NCBI RefSeq assembly: GCF_022968795.1
Contig: NZ_JALJRB010000008.1
Coordinates: forward strand, 1-64,000
Source: Desulfatitalea alkaliphila
Lineage (GTDB): Bacteria; Desulfobacterota; Desulfobacteria; Desulfobacterales; Desulfosarcinaceae
Length of the DNA: 64,000 bases
Reading direction: 5' to 3'
Shown here: positions 6,630 to 37,374 of the stretch, one piece after another
How positions within the stretch are numbered: the stretch's first letter is position 1
Layout of the letters: every line of letters starts with the position of its first letter
Notes under the pieces: model-generated
Seen by the model: only the letters and a program-made list of their open reading frames with translations
Database searches by the model: none
Told to the model about the DNA's origin: nothing
Position numbers and translations under genes: made by a program

Positions 6630-7187
6630 ATGGATGTCCGACTGAGACACAAAGAGAATATCATCGCCTTTGCAGTGGAACCGGCGGGCGACGGCAAGTT
6701 CAGCGCCACCTTCGGCGATCGGCGGGTCGATGTGGCTTTCGAGCGCATTTCCGAACACCAGATACGCCTGAGCGTGGACGGCCGCCAGACCCTGGCCTTC
6801 GTGGCCGAGACCCCTGAGGGCAAATCGGTGATGGTGGACGGGCGCACCTTCCTGCTTGCGGACGAGCGCGCCGCGGGAACACGGCCCCGGGCAAGATCGA
6901 CCGACGGCCCCAAGGCGGTTACACCGCCCATGCCGGCAGTGGTGACCCAAATCCTGGTGACCGAGGGCGGGGCGGTAGAAAAAGGGCAAGGGCTGCTGGT
7001 GGTCTCGGCCATGAAGATGGACACCCTTCTCACCGCGCCGTTCGCGGGCGTGGTCAGGCGCATCAACGTGGCAGAAGGGCAGAAGGTGGCGCCCGGGCAG
7101 GTGTTGGTGGATATCGATCCCCCGGCGGCCGATGGTGTGGCGGCGCCCGCCGCCGACGCGGCAGCGAACGATCAAGGAGACCGTTGA
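6630..7187 (+). CDS. biotin carboxyl carrier protein of acyl-CoA carboxylase
   Basis: 185 residues. The C-terminal biotinyl/lipoyl fold (about 97-168) carries SAMKM, with Lys129 the predicted biotinylation site. Residues 1-85 form a beta-rich linker domain like those before the biotinyl domain of fused alpha subunits, so this is probably the split-off C-terminal part of an ancestral alpha subunit. A purine-rich GCGGAGGA precedes the ATG. It shuttles carboxybiotin between the two preceding subunits. Confidence 0.9.
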   Translation: MDVRLRHKENIIAFAVEPAGDGKFSATFGDRRVDVAFERISEHQIRLSVDGRQTLAFVAETPEGKSVMVDGRTFLLADERAAGTRPRARSTDGPKAVTPPMPAVVTQILVTEGGAVEKGQGLLVVSAMKMDTLLTAPFAGVVRRINVAEGQKVAPGQVLVDIDPPAADGVAAPAADAAANDQGDR

Positions 7188-7966
7188 TGACGGAAAAGGA
7201 TTTGCTCTACCGCGTCGAACGGCATGTGGGCACCATCACCATCCATCGGGCCGCCACGCGCAACGCCATCACCCTTGAAGCGGTGACACTGTTCCATGCG
7301 GCCCTGGACCAGGCCCTGGCGGATGTCGATGTGCGCGCGGTCTGCATCACCGGCGCCGGCGACAAGGCCTTCTGCTCGGGGGCCGACCTGGGAAGCGGCA
7401 TGCAGGACGACGCGGCAGGCCGACGCGACCGCTTCGACAGCTATGCCCGGCTCATCAGCCGCCTGGCGGAATTTCCCAAGCCCACCGTGGCGCGGGTCAA
7501 CGGCCACTGTCTGGCCGGCGGCACCGGTTTCATGCTGGCCTGCGACATCGTGATCGCCAAAGCGTCGGCCCAATTCGGCACCCCCGAGGTCAACGTCGGG
7601 CTGTTTCCCATGATGATCGGGGCGCTGATTTTCCGCAATGTTCCGCGCAAAAAGGCCATGGAGATGATCTTGCTGGGCCGGCGCCTCACAGCCGACCAAG
7701 CCCTTTCGATGGGACTGGTCACCCGGGTCGTGCCGGATGCCGATTTGGACGCCGAGGTGGACCAGGTGCTCGCTGAACTTGCCGCCAAGAGCCCCATCGG
7801 CCTCAAGCTGGGCAAGACGGCCTTTGCCGCCGCCGAGCAGATGCCCCTGACCGAGGCGGTGCGTTACCTGGGCAGTCAACTGGCGGTGGTGGCCGCGACG
7901 CAGGATGCCCGGGAAGGCATCCGCGCTTTTGTGGAAAAACGCGCCCCGCAATTCAAAGGAGAATGA
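7187..7966 (+). CDS. enoyl-CoA hydratase/isomerase
   Basis: 259 residues of the crotonase superfamily: ADLGSGM-type oxyanion loop after AFCSG, and HCLAGGTGFMLACDIVIA forming the second oxyanion region. The ATG shares its A with the TGA of the carrier gene, and AAGGAGA precedes it, so translation is coupled. In Atu/Liu pathways the equivalent enzyme hydrates the carboxylated enoyl-CoA (AtuE, 3-methylglutaconyl-type hydratase); that specific role here is inference. Confidence 0.88.
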   Translation: MTEKDLLYRVERHVGTITIHRAATRNAITLEAVTLFHAALDQALADVDVRAVCITGAGDKAFCSGADLGSGMQDDAAGRRDRFDSYARLISRLAEFPKPTVARVNGHCLAGGTGFMLACDIVIAKASAQFGTPEVNVGLFPMMIGALIFRNVPRKKAMEMILLGRRLTADQALSMGLVTRVVPDADLDAEVDQVLAELAAKSPIGLKLGKTAFAAAEQMPLTEAVRYLGSQLAVVAATQDAREGIRAFVEKRAPQFKGE

Positions 7967-7971
7967 TCGCC

Positions 7972-8121
7972 ATGCTGTATCGTTTCGCAGGCCACACCCC
8001 GTCCATCGGCGAAGGGACTTTTGTCGGCGCGCCGGCCGGTGTTATCGGCAACGTCGTCATCGGCGACGGGGCCGTCATCGGGCACCGCAACCAAGGAGGG
8101 TGGCAGCATGCGCGATCCTGA
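7972..8121 (+). pseudogene. truncated gamma-carbonic-anhydrase-type hexapeptide protein
   Basis: After AAAGGAGAATGATCGCC an ATG opens a 49-codon frame beginning MLYRFAGHTPSIGEGTFVGA and containing VIGNVVIGDGAVIG, the left-handed beta-helix start of gamma-carbonic-anhydrase-like proteins, normally 170-200 residues. The frame ends at a TGA inside the following gene's start region, with none of the metal-binding histidines left. It seems to be the 5' stump of a gene whose remainder was deleted. It could still be translated, which may help couple the next gene. Confidence 0.7.
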
Positions 8122-9895
8122 AAAACTGATCATCGCCAATTGCAGCGGCTTTTACGGCGACCGCCTGTCGGCGGCCAGGGAAATGGTTCAAGGCGGCCCC
8201 ATCGATGTGCTCACCGGGGATTACCTGGCTGAACTCACCATGGCGATCCTGCTGCAGAAGAAACGCAAATCGGCCGAGGGCGGTTACGTCCCCACCTTTC
8301 TCAAACAGATGGAAGAGGTCATGGGAAAATGCCTGGAAAAGGGCATACGCGTGGTCTCCAACGCCGGCGGGCTGAACCCGGCGGCCCTGGCCCGTGCGCT
8401 GGGAGCCGTCGCTGAGGCGCTCGGGCTTTCGCCCAAGATCGCCTATATCGAAGGGGACGATTTGATGCCGCGGCTGGCGGAGCTCCAGCAGGCGGGTGAA
8501 CCTTTCACGCATATGGACAAGGGCATCCGCCTGGCCGATGCCGGGGCCGTTCCTATTTCGGCCAATGCCTACCTGGGCGCCTGGGGGATCGCCGCGGCCC
8601 TGGCGCAGGAAGCGGACATTGTGGTCTGCGGCCGCGTGGCCGATGCCGCCCTGGTGGCCGGCCCCTGCGCCTGGCGCTTCGGCTGGCGGCGCACCGACTG
8701 GGACCCGTTGGCCGGTGCTTATGCCGCCGGGCACATCATCGAGTGCGGCGCCCAGGCGACGGGCGGCAACTATTCCTTTATTCACGAAGTGCCTTCCTAC
8801 CACGATGTGGGATTTCCCATCGCCGAGATGCATGCCGACGGCAGCTTTGTCATCACCAAGCACCCCGGTACCGGCGGACTGGTGTCGGTCGGCACGGTGA
8901 CCGCCCAGTTGCTCTACGAAATCGACGCCCCCACCTACCTGACGCCCGACGTGGCAGTGCGCTTCGACACCCTTTCGCTGATCCAGGAGGGGCCTGACCG
9001 GGTGCGCGGCACGGGCACGCGGGGCGAACCGCCCCCTGCGACCACCAAGGTCTGCATCAACACCCTGGGCGGGTACAAGAATACCATGACGGTTGTCCTG
9101 ACCGGTCTGGACATCGACCGCAAGGCCGAGATCGTCAGCCGAACCCTGCTCGACAGCCTGGGCGGCCGCGAGCGGTTCCAGACGGTGGACGTGCAGCTCG
9201 TGCATTCCGAAAAGAGCGACCCGCGCAGCAACGACGAGGCCTTCGCCTATCTGCGCATCACGGTGATGGACCCGGATGCGGACAAGGTCGGAAAAGGCTT
9301 TTCGGCCAAGGTGGTGGAGATGGCCCTGGCCGGCATTCCCGGCTTCACCTTGACTTCGCCGCCCACCAACGGGGCGCCGGCGGTGGTGCATTGGCCTGCG
9401 CTGGTTGCAAACCGCCACATCCATCAAACGGTCTGCATCGACGGCCGGCCGGCCGAGGTGATCGAGGCCGCCGTGGTCTGCGAACCCTTTACGGTGTCTC
9501 CCGGCGAACCCGAGATCATGGCGGTTCCGGGCGGCAAAACCGTCCGGGCGCCTCTGGGGAGGGCCTTTGCCACGCGCTCCGGCGACAAAGGCGGTAATGC
9601 CAACCTCGGCATCTGGGGCAAAACGCCGGAAGCCTACGCGTTCCTGCAAAGTTTTCTGACCACCGAACGCCTCAAGGCGCTGCTGCCCGATTGCGCTTCT
9701 TTTACCATCGACCGATATGCGCTGCCCAACCTGCTCGCGCTCAATTTCTACATCCGCGGGTTGCTGGGCGACGGCGTGGCGGCGTCGGTGCGCAGCGATC
9801 CCCAAGCCAAGACCCTGGGGGAATACCTAAGGGCGAAAATGGTGGAGATGCCCGCCTCGATCCTGGTGGCCTTTCCGGACAACAAGGAGCAATGA
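8108..9895 (+). CDS. AtuA-like (DUF1446) acyclic terpene utilisation family protein
   Basis: About 595 residues starting MRDPEKLIIANCSGFYGDRL after AAGGAGGG. The N-terminal two thirds are DUF1446/AtuA (SNAGGLNPAALARALG, VVCGRVADAALVAGP, ECGAQATGGNYS). The last about 110 residues are the small AtuA-like domain (ATRSGDKGGNANLGIWGKTP) fused in one chain, as in many family members. AtuA proteins occur with geranyl-CoA-type carboxylases, but their biochemical role is not settled. It overlaps the truncated gene at 7972-8121 by 14 bases. Confidence 0.88.
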   Translation: MRDPEKLIIANCSGFYGDRLSAAREMVQGGPIDVLTGDYLAELTMAILLQKKRKSAEGGYVPTFLKQMEEVMGKCLEKGIRVVSNAGGLNPAALARALGAVAEALGLSPKIAYIEGDDLMPRLAELQQAGEPFTHMDKGIRLADAGAVPISANAYLGAWGIAAALAQEADIVVCGRVADAALVAGPCAWRFGWRRTDWDPLAGAYAAGHIIECGAQATGGNYSFIHEVPSYHDVGFPIAEMHADGSFVITKHPGTGGLVSVGTVTAQLLYEIDAPTYLTPDVAVRFDTLSLIQEGPDRVRGTGTRGEPPPATTKVCINTLGGYKNTMTVVLTGLDIDRKAEIVSRTLLDSLGGRERFQTVDVQLVHSEKSDPRSNDEAFAYLRITVMDPDADKVGKGFSAKVVEMALAGIPGFTLTSPPTNGAPAVVHWPALVANRHIHQTVCIDGRPAEVIEAAVVCEPFTVSPGEPEIMAVPGGKTVRAPLGRAFATRSGDKGGNANLGIWGKTPEAYAFLQSFLTTERLKALLPDCASFTIDRYALPNLLALNFYIRGLLGDGVAASVRSDPQAKTLGEYLRAKMVEMPASILVAFPDNKEQ

Positions 9896-16427: not shown

Positions 16428-17780
16428 TCATCCTGATTGCTGCAGAGCCTGTTCCGCCGCGATGGTGATGGGTTCCATGCTCGGCTCGGAGGAGATGTCC
16501 GGGTTGCAGGCCGATGTGAAGGTGGTGAGATCGGCCATGGTTTTGCCGCCGAGAATGAACGCGCTGACGGCGTCGATTTCGCGGGCGGGCGCAACGTCGT
16601 GGCTGACGATCTGACCGCCGATCAGCTTTTTGGTTTCCCGGTCGAAAACCAGCTTGATCCGCCAGGGCTGCATGCCGGGGATCATGCCGTGCTTGCTGCG
16701 AGAATCCACGGCGGCACAGATCGTTTCGAACCCTTCCCGGGCGGCGGTCTCTTCGGTCAGACCGGTGGAGGCGACCACAAGGTCGAACATCCGACAGCCG
16801 CCGGCGTTGAGCACGCCGGGAAAGCCGATGTCGAATCCGGCGAGGCGCTTTGCCGCCAGGCGTCCCTGCATCACCGCCGGCCCCCTGAGGCATCCGGCGT
16901 CGATCTTGCCGGTGATGAAGTTGATCTTTTCGACACAATCGCCGCCCGCCAGGATGTCCGGGTCGGATGTTTCCTGGAACCGATTCACCTGTATCCCGAA
17001 CCGGCCCATTTTCAGGCCTGCTTTTTCCGCCAGCGCGACGTTGGGTCTGACCCCCACATTGACAAAAACCATATCCGCGTCGATGATCTTTCCGGAATCG
17101 AGGGCCACGCCGCGGACATGGGTGTCTTGCCCCACAATTTGTTCCACCTTTGCGTCGGTCATCAGGCGAATCCCCTGCTTATCAAGATATTCCGCAACCG
17201 GACCGGCCATATCTTTATCCAGCATCAGGGGCAGGGGTCGATCGCACTGTTCCACCACGGTGATGTCATAGGCGCCGGGGTTCTGGGTGGCCAACAGCGA
17301 CGCGATTTCCATGCTGATAAAGCCCGCGCCGATAAAGACCAGCTTGGCGGGCTTTGTTTCAGCCAGAAAAGCTTTGATCCGTTCGGCGTCGTCAAGGCCG
17401 CGAAGGGCGCACACCCCGTTGAGCTCCCGGCCGCCGAGTGGCGGGATGAATGCGCTCGATCCGGTGGCCAGAAACAGCTTGTCATAGGGAAATCGCCGGC
17501 CGTCGGCCGTCAACGCCTGCTTTTGGGCGGTATCCAGCTCCGTTACTTCACCTACGGTGACGTTGATGCCTGCTTCCTCGAGTTTTTTGTCCGGCACCAC
17601 AATGGACTCCGGCGCGGCCAGACCGGCCACGACATGGGGAAGCGCTCATCGGACGATGAAATTGGGTTCCTTGCGGATCACCGTGACATCGACCTCGGGC
17701 ATCAATTTCTTGGCCAGCATGGCGGCTGGACCGCCCGCGCCGCTGCAACCGACGACAACCAATTTTTCACCTTTTTTCAT
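16428..17780 (-). CDS. FAD-dependent NAD(P) oxidoreductase, probable selenoprotein (in-frame TGA, codon 45)
   Basis: Reading through one TGA (17646-17648) gives 450 residues, the normal length for the NADH oxidase/CoA-disulfide reductase family. The ATG at 17780 follows GGAGG. FAD fold: VVVGCSGAGGPAA (8-20). The TGA falls in EPNFIVR-[TGA]-ALPHVV at position 45, where this family carries its redox-active cysteine (Cys42/43). Later parts are typical: ATGSSAFIPP, NAD fold VFIGAGFISMEIASLL, LAGGDCVEKI, and a dimerisation domain. A hairpin with a GGUCU loop sits 21 bases after the TGA. The shorter frame starting at GTG 17630 would lack FAD binding. It shares orientation with the CGGC gene upstream. 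Confidence 0.85.
17613..17631 (-). promoter_or_regulatory. SECIS-like hairpin of the oxidoreductase gene
   Basis: On the minus strand, CGTGGCC pairs with GGCCGCG (seven pairs, one G-U) around the loop GGTCT. The loop starts 21 bases after the TGA at 17648-17646. E. coli fdhF uses the same GGUCU apical loop for SelB binding, with 18 bases between its TGA and the loop. Spacing, loop and stem all fit the bacterial SECIS rules. Confidence 0.75.
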
Positions 17781-35379: not shown

Positions 35380-35794
35380 GTTTCTCTTTGACGGAAATTT
35401 GTTATTGCGTCAAAATGATCTATGAGTCTACCAGTTCAGTCAACCGGGGACAAGTTCGCAGCATGAAGATCGCAAGACGATTGCCTCCCACGGCACCTTG
35501 GCAGGGTGTGTGTTTTCGCTTCATTGGATGGGGATTCGGGTTGTGAGATGTATGATGAAGGCGAACAGCAATTCTTTATAGCGAAGGCGAGCGACCGATG
35601 AAAAACAGTGCCCGTTAGGGTTTGGCCACCATGTGCGTCGGCCGCGGACAAGGCCGTGCCATGATCCGGGAAAACCTGATGCGCGGATGAAGGTCAAACA
35701 GCCGCTTCTCTCCGGCATCCCCGGCTTCGGCGCCGCCGGGGACGTCAAGGGCATCCCCGGCGCCACGCCCTCACGGTATAAAGGAGGCTCGATC
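35380..35794. other. leader region of the thiolase gene
   Basis: About 415 bases without a gene I can support. The last 100 bases are very GC-rich with repeated GGCATCCCCGG and GCCGCCGGGG blocks that can pair, directly before the ribosome site AAAGGAGG. This could fold into a leader structure. No promoter was clear. Confidence 0.4.
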
Positions 35795-36964
35795 ATGCGT
35801 TCATCGCTCAAGGACAAATACGCCATCGTCGGCATAGGTTACACACCCCAGGGCCGGATTCCCGACAGGACATCGCTCAGCTTTCATTTGGAGGCATCGG
35901 CCAACGCCATCGCGGATGCCGGTTTGAACCCTGCCGATGTGGACGGGCTGATCAGCTACCGCCACTTTCCGGCGGCATCCAATGAGATCGACCTGACCCC
36001 TCAATTGATCGCGCAGCATCTGGGCATCACGCCGAACTACATGAGCCAGGATGCCAATTGATCGCGGAATCACCTACAGCACGCAGTTGGCGCGCTCGAA
36101 TCCGGAATGTGTCATTATGTATTGATCTCTTACGGCCACAATGCCTCTTCCAGCGACAGCATGCAGCAGATGCTGTTCGATCTGGCCAGGGATGGTGCCC
36201 CCTTCGGCCATTTCGGGGCGGTCGGCGGTTACGCCCTGGCGGCCCGGCGGGCGATGGCGACGTTCGGCTCGGGGCCCGAAACCTGGCAAGAGATCGCCGT
36301 GGGTCAACGCAAGTGGGCCAATCTGAACCCGATTGCCAAAATGTACCGCAAAACCATGACGGCGGCGGATTATGACAATGCCGACTGGGTTGTCGAACCG
36401 TTCCGCCTGCCGGACATGTGCCTGATGAACGACGGCGGCCGCGCCCTGATCGTCACCTCCCTGGAGCGGGCGCGGGACTTGAAACAACCCCCGGCCGTGA
36501 TCATGGGCATGGGCCAGCACAATCCCTCGACGGCCATTGAACAGTCCGATTGGATGGACGGACCCACCGGGGCCAAGAAGGCCGGTGCAGAGGCCCTCGC
36601 CATGGCCGGCATCACCCTCGATGCGGTGGATGCCTGCCAGATTTACGACTGCTTTACCTACACCGTGGAGATCACCCTGCAGGATTATGGGTTTTTCAAA
36701 CCCGGCGAAGGGCGTGATTGGTTCCAGGGCGGGACGATCGCGCCCGGCGGCCGCATGCCGGTCAACACCTCGGGGGGGCAGCTCTCGGAAGCCTACTATA
36801 TGGGCTTGACGCCCGTCAGCGAGGGGGCCATGCAGTTGATGGGACGCTGCGGCGAGCGGCAGCTGGGCCCCGCAACGGGGAACAAAACACCGCAAATCAT
36901 CATGTGCAGCGATAACGGTGGGATCTTGCAAAGCCACGCGTGTATCCTGTTGAGGAGGGCGTAA
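35795..36964 (+). CDS. thiolase-like (SCP-x/LTP) enzyme with in-frame TGA at codon 89, possible selenoprotein
   Basis: Reading through the TGA at 36059-36061 gives 389 residues, the usual length of this thiolase family, with a clean ribosome site (AAAGGAGG). Both sides are normal: KYAIVGIGYTPQGRIPDRT at the front, QHAVGALESGMCHYVLISYG after the TGA, and NTSGGQLSEAYYMGL near the end. Codon 89 lies where thiolases place the acyl-accepting cysteine (Cys89 in the Zoogloea enzyme). A hairpin with loop AGTTG follows 23 bases later. Either Sec is inserted or the gene is a recent nonsense mutant. It pairs with the DUF35 gene next to it. Confidence 0.7.
36078..36096 (+). promoter_or_regulatory. SECIS-like hairpin of the thiolase gene
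   Basis: AGCACGC (36078-36084) pairs with GCGCGCT (36090-36096), one A-C mismatch, around the loop AGTTG. The loop starts 23 bases after the TGA, and has G then T near its 5' side, as bacterial SECIS rules require. It is weaker than the hairpin in the oxidoreductase gene. Confidence 0.45.
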
Positions 36965-36966
36965 CC

Positions 36967-37374
36967 ATGGCCTACGAAAAACCTTTGCCGAGGATCAATG
37001 GGGACAACAGCGGCTTCTGGGAGGGCTGCCGTGGGCACCTGCTCAAGTTCCAGCAGTGCCGCGACTGCGGGCATGTCCGATGGCCGCCGGCCGATCTCTG
37101 CCCTGCTTGCCTTTCCAAGGCGCATGACTTTTTGGCATCCAAAGGATTGGGACGGATCTACACCTTCGCCGTCTATCACCAGGCCTTCCACCCGGCATTT
37201 GCAGCCGATCTGCCCTATACGGTGGCCATCGTGGCCCTGGATGAAGGGCCCCACCTGCTGACCAACATCATCCAGTGCCCGCCTGAAGCGGTGCGCTGCG
37301 GCATGCGGGTCACGGTAGTGTGGGAGGCGGTGGACGACACGATTACGCTGCCCAAATTCAAGCCCGCGGCGTAG
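36967..37374 (+). CDS. DUF35 OB-fold / zinc-ribbon partner of thiolase
   Basis: 135 residues. The rubredoxin-like zinc ribbon is CRDCGHVRWPPADLCPAC (about 33-50), followed by the OB-fold (GRIYTFAVYHQAFHPAF). DUF35 proteins form complexes with thiolase-like LTP proteins, for example the retro-aldolase Ltp2. It begins two bases after the thiolase stop, so they are expected to be one complex. Its TAG stop overlaps the first base triplet of a palindromic repeat. Confidence 0.9.
   Translation: MAYEKPLPRINGDNSGFWEGCRGHLLKFQQCRDCGHVRWPPADLCPACLSKAHDFLASKGLGRIYTFAVYHQAFHPAFAADLPYTVAIVALDEGPHLLTNIIQCPPEAVRCGMRVTVVWEAVDDTITLPKFKPAA

Follow-up and report, generated by a model that had tools for sequence, protein, structure and literature searches.

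The locus considered here raises the question of whether a TGA triplet inside a gene for a thiolase-like enzyme of Desulfatitalea alkaliphila is a stop that breaks the gene or a codon for selenocysteine (Sec), and, in the latter instance, what a Sec might be doing at that place in such an enzyme. The window, by which we mean the whole stretch of 64,000 nucleotides analysed, contains a frame of 389 codons plus TAA in which codon 89 is the sole TGA (Table 1). A previous sequence-only reading had described that TGA as lying in one uninterrupted frame, behind a good ribosome-binding site and between family motifs on both sides: the sequence and its translation bear out the first statement, the AAGGAGG box lies seven bases 5' of the ATG, and the flanks of the TGA are conserved on each side in the homologue alignments. 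For the product, Pfam matched the C-terminal thiolase domain alone, while the thiolase and lipid-transfer families of NCBIfam all scored below their cut-offs (best, 265.7 against 421 bits).

Table 1. Features of the locus, in window coordinates.
Feature	Position	Strand	Basis or remark
Ribosome-binding site AAGGAGG	35781..35787	+	sequence
Predicted Sec-containing thiolase-superfamily gene	35795..36964	+	389 residues, TAA stop
TGA codon 89, read as Sec89, motif QDANUSR	36059..36061	+	aligned column
Candidate bacterial SECIS hairpin, stem AGCACGC/GCGCGCT, loop AGTTG (N-GU-N)	36078..36096	+	comparative
Hairpin, first arm AGCACGC	36078..36084	+
Hairpin, loop AGTTG	36085..36089	+
Hairpin, second arm GCGCGCT	36090..36096	+
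YDCF motif, Tyr284-Asp285-Cys286-Phe287	36644..36655	+	Ltp2 Tyr294 and Sal Tyr302/Cys304 equivalents (alignment to 6ok1, 9myr)
Tyr334	36794..36796	+	Ltp2 Tyr344 equivalent; aligned with the GHP His of thiolases
DUF35/ChsH2-type partner, rubredoxin-like zinc ribbon plus OB fold	36967..37374	+	PF12172, PF01796

A scan of named genomes yielded 193 relatives, of which the best 80 were aligned together with the window sequence. In these 81 sequences the in-frame TGA, for which the sequence-only reading had advised looking in related genomes, recurs: the codon-89 column holds TGA in 48, Cys in 31 (TGT 19, TGC 12), and Gly in 2 (GGC and GGT, one each). The two Gly sequences (L178 and L179, 53–55% identity) were set as an outgroup by our own choice, which the tree backs in that they fall there with the outgroup; we therefore use the term family for the remaining 79 members, in all of which column 89 is Sec or Cys. 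That sister family, in which GASAG replaces the Sec/Cys motif while YDCF and Tyr334 are retained, offers a natural comparison free of Cys and Sec. Each of the matched TGA genes among the best 80 carries one TGA and no further stop. The TGA records in that set include Desulfatitalea, Desulfatibacillum alkenivorans DSM 16219, Smithella, and Syntrophaceae; the Cys records include Desulfurella acetivorans, Hippea, Dehalococcoidia, Aquificota, another Smithella, and two Syntrophus aciditrophicus assemblies. A non-Cys sense codon in close relatives lacking the hairpin had been named beforehand as the observation that would speak against Sec; we encountered it in only the two Gly sequences and in more distant paralogues.

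The gene was also sought by taxonomic rank. Within the genus, an orthologue was found at 1e-60 in 5 of 11 genomes, with TGA in all five. The order (389 genomes) gave 18 matches at 1e-55, 15 of which, at 68% identity or above, had exactly one TGA each, and three of which, at 37–39%, had none; 389 genomes drawn from the class and searched with the tighter limit of 1e-60 yielded 17 of those 18 with no additions, and the phylum (395 genomes) gave 35 matches at 1e-60. The 47 proteins aligned from these searches, whose genomes overlap with those of the 81-sequence scan so that the two counts are not additive, comprise 30 with TGA, 9 with TGC or TGT, and 8 with other codons, the last being more distant (about 37–42% identity). 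The resulting 39 orthologues include one partial gene (L087, 3108-3800), which has two TGA in the matched stretch, one of them at the Sec column. No relative of the query was confirmed in the viral contigs searched.

The machinery for Sec decoding is present in the organism's own genome, with SelB at 379.6 bits and tRNA-Sec at 73.5 bits. SelB exceeded the cut-off in 29 of 30 TGA genomes (14/15 in a first set and 15/15 in a second), the exception being a genome 71% complete, and tRNA-Sec exceeded 70 bits in 13 of the first 15, where the two misses are 71% and 73% complete; weak tRNA-Sec matches, present in all 24 genomes, were left uncounted. Of 21 Cys genomes, 16 likewise had SelB above the cut-off, so that the Cys forms are not accounted for by a lost machinery. 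We rejected a reassignment of TGA throughout the genome, as 12 of the 47 TGA genes fetched also end in TGA, and a pseudogene or a sequencing error in view of the 48 TGA sequences among the best 80 relatives and the window.

Two other frames of the window run across a TGA. One, at 16431-17780 on the minus strand, encodes a FAD-dependent pyridine nucleotide-disulphide oxidoreductase with TGA at 17646-17648 in the motif FIVRUALP, its start being our guess (the ATG preceding MKKGEKL); it resembles the catalogued Sec family 'FAD-dependent oxidoreductase (CoA-disulfide reductase) UGxP' (PMC13188914) and is probably the second Sec gene to which the sequence-only reading alluded. The other, at 7184-9892 on the plus strand, joins an enoyl-CoA hydratase and an AtuA protein in one frame across the TGA, and most likely represents two adjacent genes sharing that frame.

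The hairpin downstream of codon 89 spans nucleotides 17-35 after the TGA, from which 16 nt separate the stem. It had been placed 23 bases beyond the TGA, which figure holds for the start of the loop, though the stem begins earlier; likewise, the two arms proposed do pair, but with one A.C mismatch in this genome. The published rules for a bacterial SECIS call for a loop of 3-9 nt, a stem of 4-16 bp, a G among the first two loop nucleotides, a distance of 16-37 nt between TGA and loop, and a minimum free energy of at most -7.5 (PMC13188914); here we found a loop of 5 nt with G at position 2, six pairs plus the A.C mismatch, 23 nt, and -7.5 kcal/mol, the energy thus lying right at the limit. When folded singly, the window hairpin showed no excess over shuffled sequences (z -0.76 for 29 nt, +0.38 for 52 nt), so that the evidence for it is comparative.

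For that comparison we used 55 distinct TGA genes and 36 distinct Cys genes, after removal of identical 60-base stretches. Five of the seven stem pairs were kept in all 55 TGA genes, the less-kept ones being the outermost (41/55) and the A.C/A-U pair (29/55). The loop GU at positions 2-3 was present in 55/55 TGA genes versus 8/36 Cys genes, and loop positions 1 and 4 covaried in 54/55 TGA genes (A-U 40, C-G 7, G-C 7, other 1), both falling on the third base of a codon (Ala and Val), the changes being synonymous. The observed pairing, the covariation score, and the count of double changes were each reached by none of 500 shuffles, the tally of pairs showing double changes by 6, and the number of further pair types by 437, with the proviso that kinship among the sequences can inflate all counts of this kind. 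Sliding the stem partners lowered the pairing from 90.7% to at most 53.4%, although at a slide of +2 the covariation score was 0.111 versus 0.121 unslid. In the Cys genes the pairing was at shuffle level (47.9% versus 48.5% shuffled), the hairpin of the TGA genes having decayed there. A scan of codon identity in the TGA genes ranked the hairpin codons first of 372 windows for synonymous constraint, while in the Cys genes these codons were absent from the top windows shown. The covariation term of RNAalifold was near zero for the hairpin because that program leaves the loop unpaired; the covariation within the loop, as read from these alignments, is stronger evidence for a SECIS than the energy of folding. 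In one TGA gene (L117, 502-561) the conserved His of QHAV is replaced by Leu and one stem position is T.C, the loop and the core stem being kept.

On this comparative footing, the TGA at codon 89 almost certainly codes for Sec and the gene is a predicted selenoprotein gene. In a quick tree of 86 proteins, calculated with the Sec/Cys column masked, the Sec and Cys labels require three changes. When the tree is rooted on the outgroup the Cys lineages are basal, so that the natural reading, as this topology suggests, would be that Sec was gained once and reverted twice (L111/L112/L116 and L129/L151/L156); change counts by themselves cannot tell whether Sec was gained or lost, 29 of the 83 internal branches are left open, and the program warned of long outgroup branches that meet.

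What kind of enzyme carries the Sec was approached through its predicted structure. With 87 sequences AlphaFold2 (AF2) gave a model of pLDDT 94.3 and pTM 0.94, as compared with a pLDDT of 40 with 15 sequences, and Foldseek placed nearest to the former the chains 4u4e, Ltp2 (6ok1), Sal (9myr), and the archaeal thiolase 6esq, with TM scores by query length of 0.85 to 4u4e, 0.85 to 6ok1, and 0.86 to 6esq. The modelled fold is that of the thiolases and Ltp2. In the model, residue 89 sits in a turn between strand 82-85 and helix 93-102, where the confidence is locally lower (mean pLDDT 80 for residues 81-90).

The TGA had been assigned to the position of the thiolase nucleophile, an assignment that is likely, the residue falling on the 6esq Cys whether masked or not, but unproved, as with masking its place varies by up to two residues. 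When residue 89 was shown as Cys, it aligned on the nucleophilic Cys in 6esq, its counterpart Cys in 7yvy, and the Cys of Ltp2 GGGAACG, as well as on the first Gly of 4u4e GGSS and the Ser of Sal GGAS; when masked as X, it fell on the 6esq Cys, one residue past the 7yvy Cys, two before the Ltp2 Cys, on the first Gly in 4u4e, and on the second Gly in Sal. A profile-profile comparison against 34 Cys thiolases matched it to the Cys if shown and, if masked, to the second residue after that Cys. The motif, mostly Q-[DE]-A-N-[UC], resembles the thiolase [VF]-E-x-x-C, and reads U-S-R from the Sec onwards, as compared with the CxS fingerprint of thiolases. To judge from these alignments, a fair statement would be that Sec89 lies at the thiolase nucleophile or at most two residues from it; the number 89 shared with Cys89 of the Z. 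ramigera thiolase is a coincidence.

The remainder of the active site departs from that of a thiolase. Tyr284 and Tyr334 occupy the positions of the HDCF His and the GHP His of SCP2-type thiolases, and the thiolase NEAF/HDCF and GHP fingerprints, as given in PMC3406046 and PMC12329534, are absent. Present instead in all 79 family members (from the best 80 of 193 relatives plus the window) are YDCF, Tyr334, and Arg91, and with them the catalytic Tyr and acid of the Ltp2/Sal aldolases in the form of Tyr284, Cys286, and Tyr334; for Ltp2, PMC12329534 names Tyr294 and Tyr344 as catalytic. The Gly that Sal has at the thiolase Cys position is missing, if the masked alignments are right, column 89 being Sec or Cys throughout. 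By its sequence, then, the protein is neither an ordinary thiolase, since the HDCF and GHP His are replaced, nor an ordinary Sal-type aldolase, which has Gly where Sec or Cys stands here. To call it a thiolase, as had been done, is too simple in view of those two His, which are Tyr here, and of the Ltp2 and Sal aldolases among its nearest solved relatives.

A DUF35 gene lies directly downstream in 78 of 80 loci (the best 80 of 193 relatives), and all 78 of these adjacent partners have the Cys4 pattern for zinc; of the two misses, one locus ends at a contig edge (L174) and the other does not (L118). In a separate set of loci the pairing was found in 17 of 17 (14 with TGA and 3 distant ones without). 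Besides DUF35, a crude ORF caller found no cluster in more than 7 of the same 80 loci, nor did any Pfam family occur in more than two among 51 neighbours on the same strand, each 180 residues or longer, in 41 thinned loci, so that these neighbourhood scans revealed no conserved metabolic or redox gene. An apparent protein fusion in one genome (a 909-codon open frame in G410) was judged from its translation to be an accidental upstream frame.

The pairing recalls three known systems. The Ltp2–ChsH2(DUF35) retro-aldolase (6ok1) shares the thiolase fold, the DUF35 partner, and the equivalents of Tyr294 and Tyr344, but has YDHF instead of YDCF and GGGAACG instead of QDANUSR; we know of no role for the Cys of that GGGAACG. 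The Sal–Shy(DUF35) bile acid aldolase (9myr) shares YDC with its catalytic Tyr and Cys as well as the DUF35 partner, but differs in the Gly at the thiolase Cys position and in Gln352 versus Tyr334 (PMC12329534). The archaeal acetoacetyl-CoA thiolase of the HMGCS/DUF35 complex (6esq) has a DUF35 partner too (same source), and the Cys of its EAACAS aligns with Sec89, but it has the HDCF and GHP His in place of Tyr. The nearest solved structure by both sequence and fold is the putative thiolase of Sphaerobacter thermophilus (4u4e), which has GGSS and neither Cys nor Sec. With the known bacterial selenoprotein families the gene has in common the in-frame UGA, the bSECIS rules, and the Sec/Cys pairs.

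In the mechanism that we propose, SelB and tRNA-Sec would decode the UGA of codon 89, aided by the downstream SECIS hairpin, and the product would be an enzyme of the SCP2-thiolase/Ltp2/Sal branch that acts on a CoA thioester together with the DUF35 subunit. Sec89, where the helix bearing the thiolase nucleophile begins, would attack the thioester carbonyl and carry the acyl group in the form of a selenoester; the acid-base work of C-C cleavage or formation, by retro-Claisen or acyl transfer, would fall to Tyr284/Cys286 and Tyr334. The covalent catalysis, the formation of a complex with DUF35, the type of reaction, and the substrate we infer from the comparisons above. The low pKa of Sec may compensate for the missing GHP His; as the Cys relatives in the 79-member family are also without that His, however, the low pKa would not be the whole story. 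On balance we lean towards a Sec89 that accepts the acyl group in an acyl-transfer or retro-Claisen reaction associated with DUF35, and put forward more tentatively, as a conjecture somewhat open to doubt, the fuller proposal of a new DUF35-associated branch of the thiolase superfamily that performs C-C-bond chemistry on CoA thioesters with Sec as a covalent acyl carrier. Retro-aldol chemistry, for its part, requires no nucleophile, and against an acyl-Sec stand both the GGSS at the site in 4u4e and the Gly of Sal at the thiolase Cys position (PMC12329534).

Sec89 might belong to a selenoprotein in which its role is redox or regulatory, through a selenenylsulfide with a conserved Cys or as a switch, while Tyr284, Cys286, and Tyr334 carry out a retro-aldol reaction of the Ltp2/Sal type. 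Uncharacterised selenoproteins are mostly thought to be redox proteins (PMC13188914), both catalytic Tyr of Ltp2 and the YDC motif of Sal (PMC12329534) are invariant here, and the Cys at 106, 209, 281, 286, 352, and 371, kept in 64-79 of the 79 family members with Cys106 and Cys286 invariant, leave room for such a role. Nevertheless, the UxxC, CxxU, and UC motifs are absent at the site, Sec89 lies at or near the thiolase nucleophile, and the conserved neighbours include no redox gene, so that we regard this alternative as possible though unlikely. Rather improbable, in our estimation, is a Sec89 that serves as a general acid/base or an oxyanion-hole residue in (retro-)aldol catalysis with no acyl-enzyme: the rest of the active site is aldolase-like and Sal does employ a Cys as its catalytic acid, but that Cys belongs to the YDCY matched here by Cys286, and Sal functions with Gly at the thiolase Cys position (on Sal, PMC12329534). 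Finally, that the TGA is a true stop (by pseudogene, frameshift, or sequencing error), a Trp codon, or a site of leaky read-through appears exceedingly improbable, as against a hairpin unremarkable when folded alone there stand the SECIS covariation, the single TGA without other stops in each matched gene, and the 48 TGA sequences with Cys as the sole sense alternative within the family as examined (among the best 80 of 193).

A 2026 catalogue of 119 prokaryotic selenoprotein families includes in its Table 1 no member of the thiolase superfamily (PMC13188914), the word thiolase is absent from the main text of PMC9312934, PMC2398784, PMC8318568, PMC12013277, PMC1088965, PMC1794560, and PMC5029168, and PMC5109826 names five other Sec genes. 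We found no report of a Sec thiolase in the literature searched, outside which lie the supplements and most subscription journals, where one could be listed.

With codon 89 very probably read as Sec, selenium would appear in a family of C-C-bond enzymes for which that literature reports none, and a gene seemingly broken by a stop would encode an enzyme common to many anaerobic bacteria; in sulfate reducers and syntrophs, annotation pipelines presumably break such genes in two or give them a wrong start. A redox function is established or presumed for most selenoproteins, and the few that lack one include methyltransferases and SelD (PMC13188914); if the acyl-carrier reading were true, Sec would here have a non-redox task. 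The clean Cys relatives in several phyla, together with a tree suggestive of a single gain and two reversions, form a natural series for asking what selenium brings outside redox chemistry.
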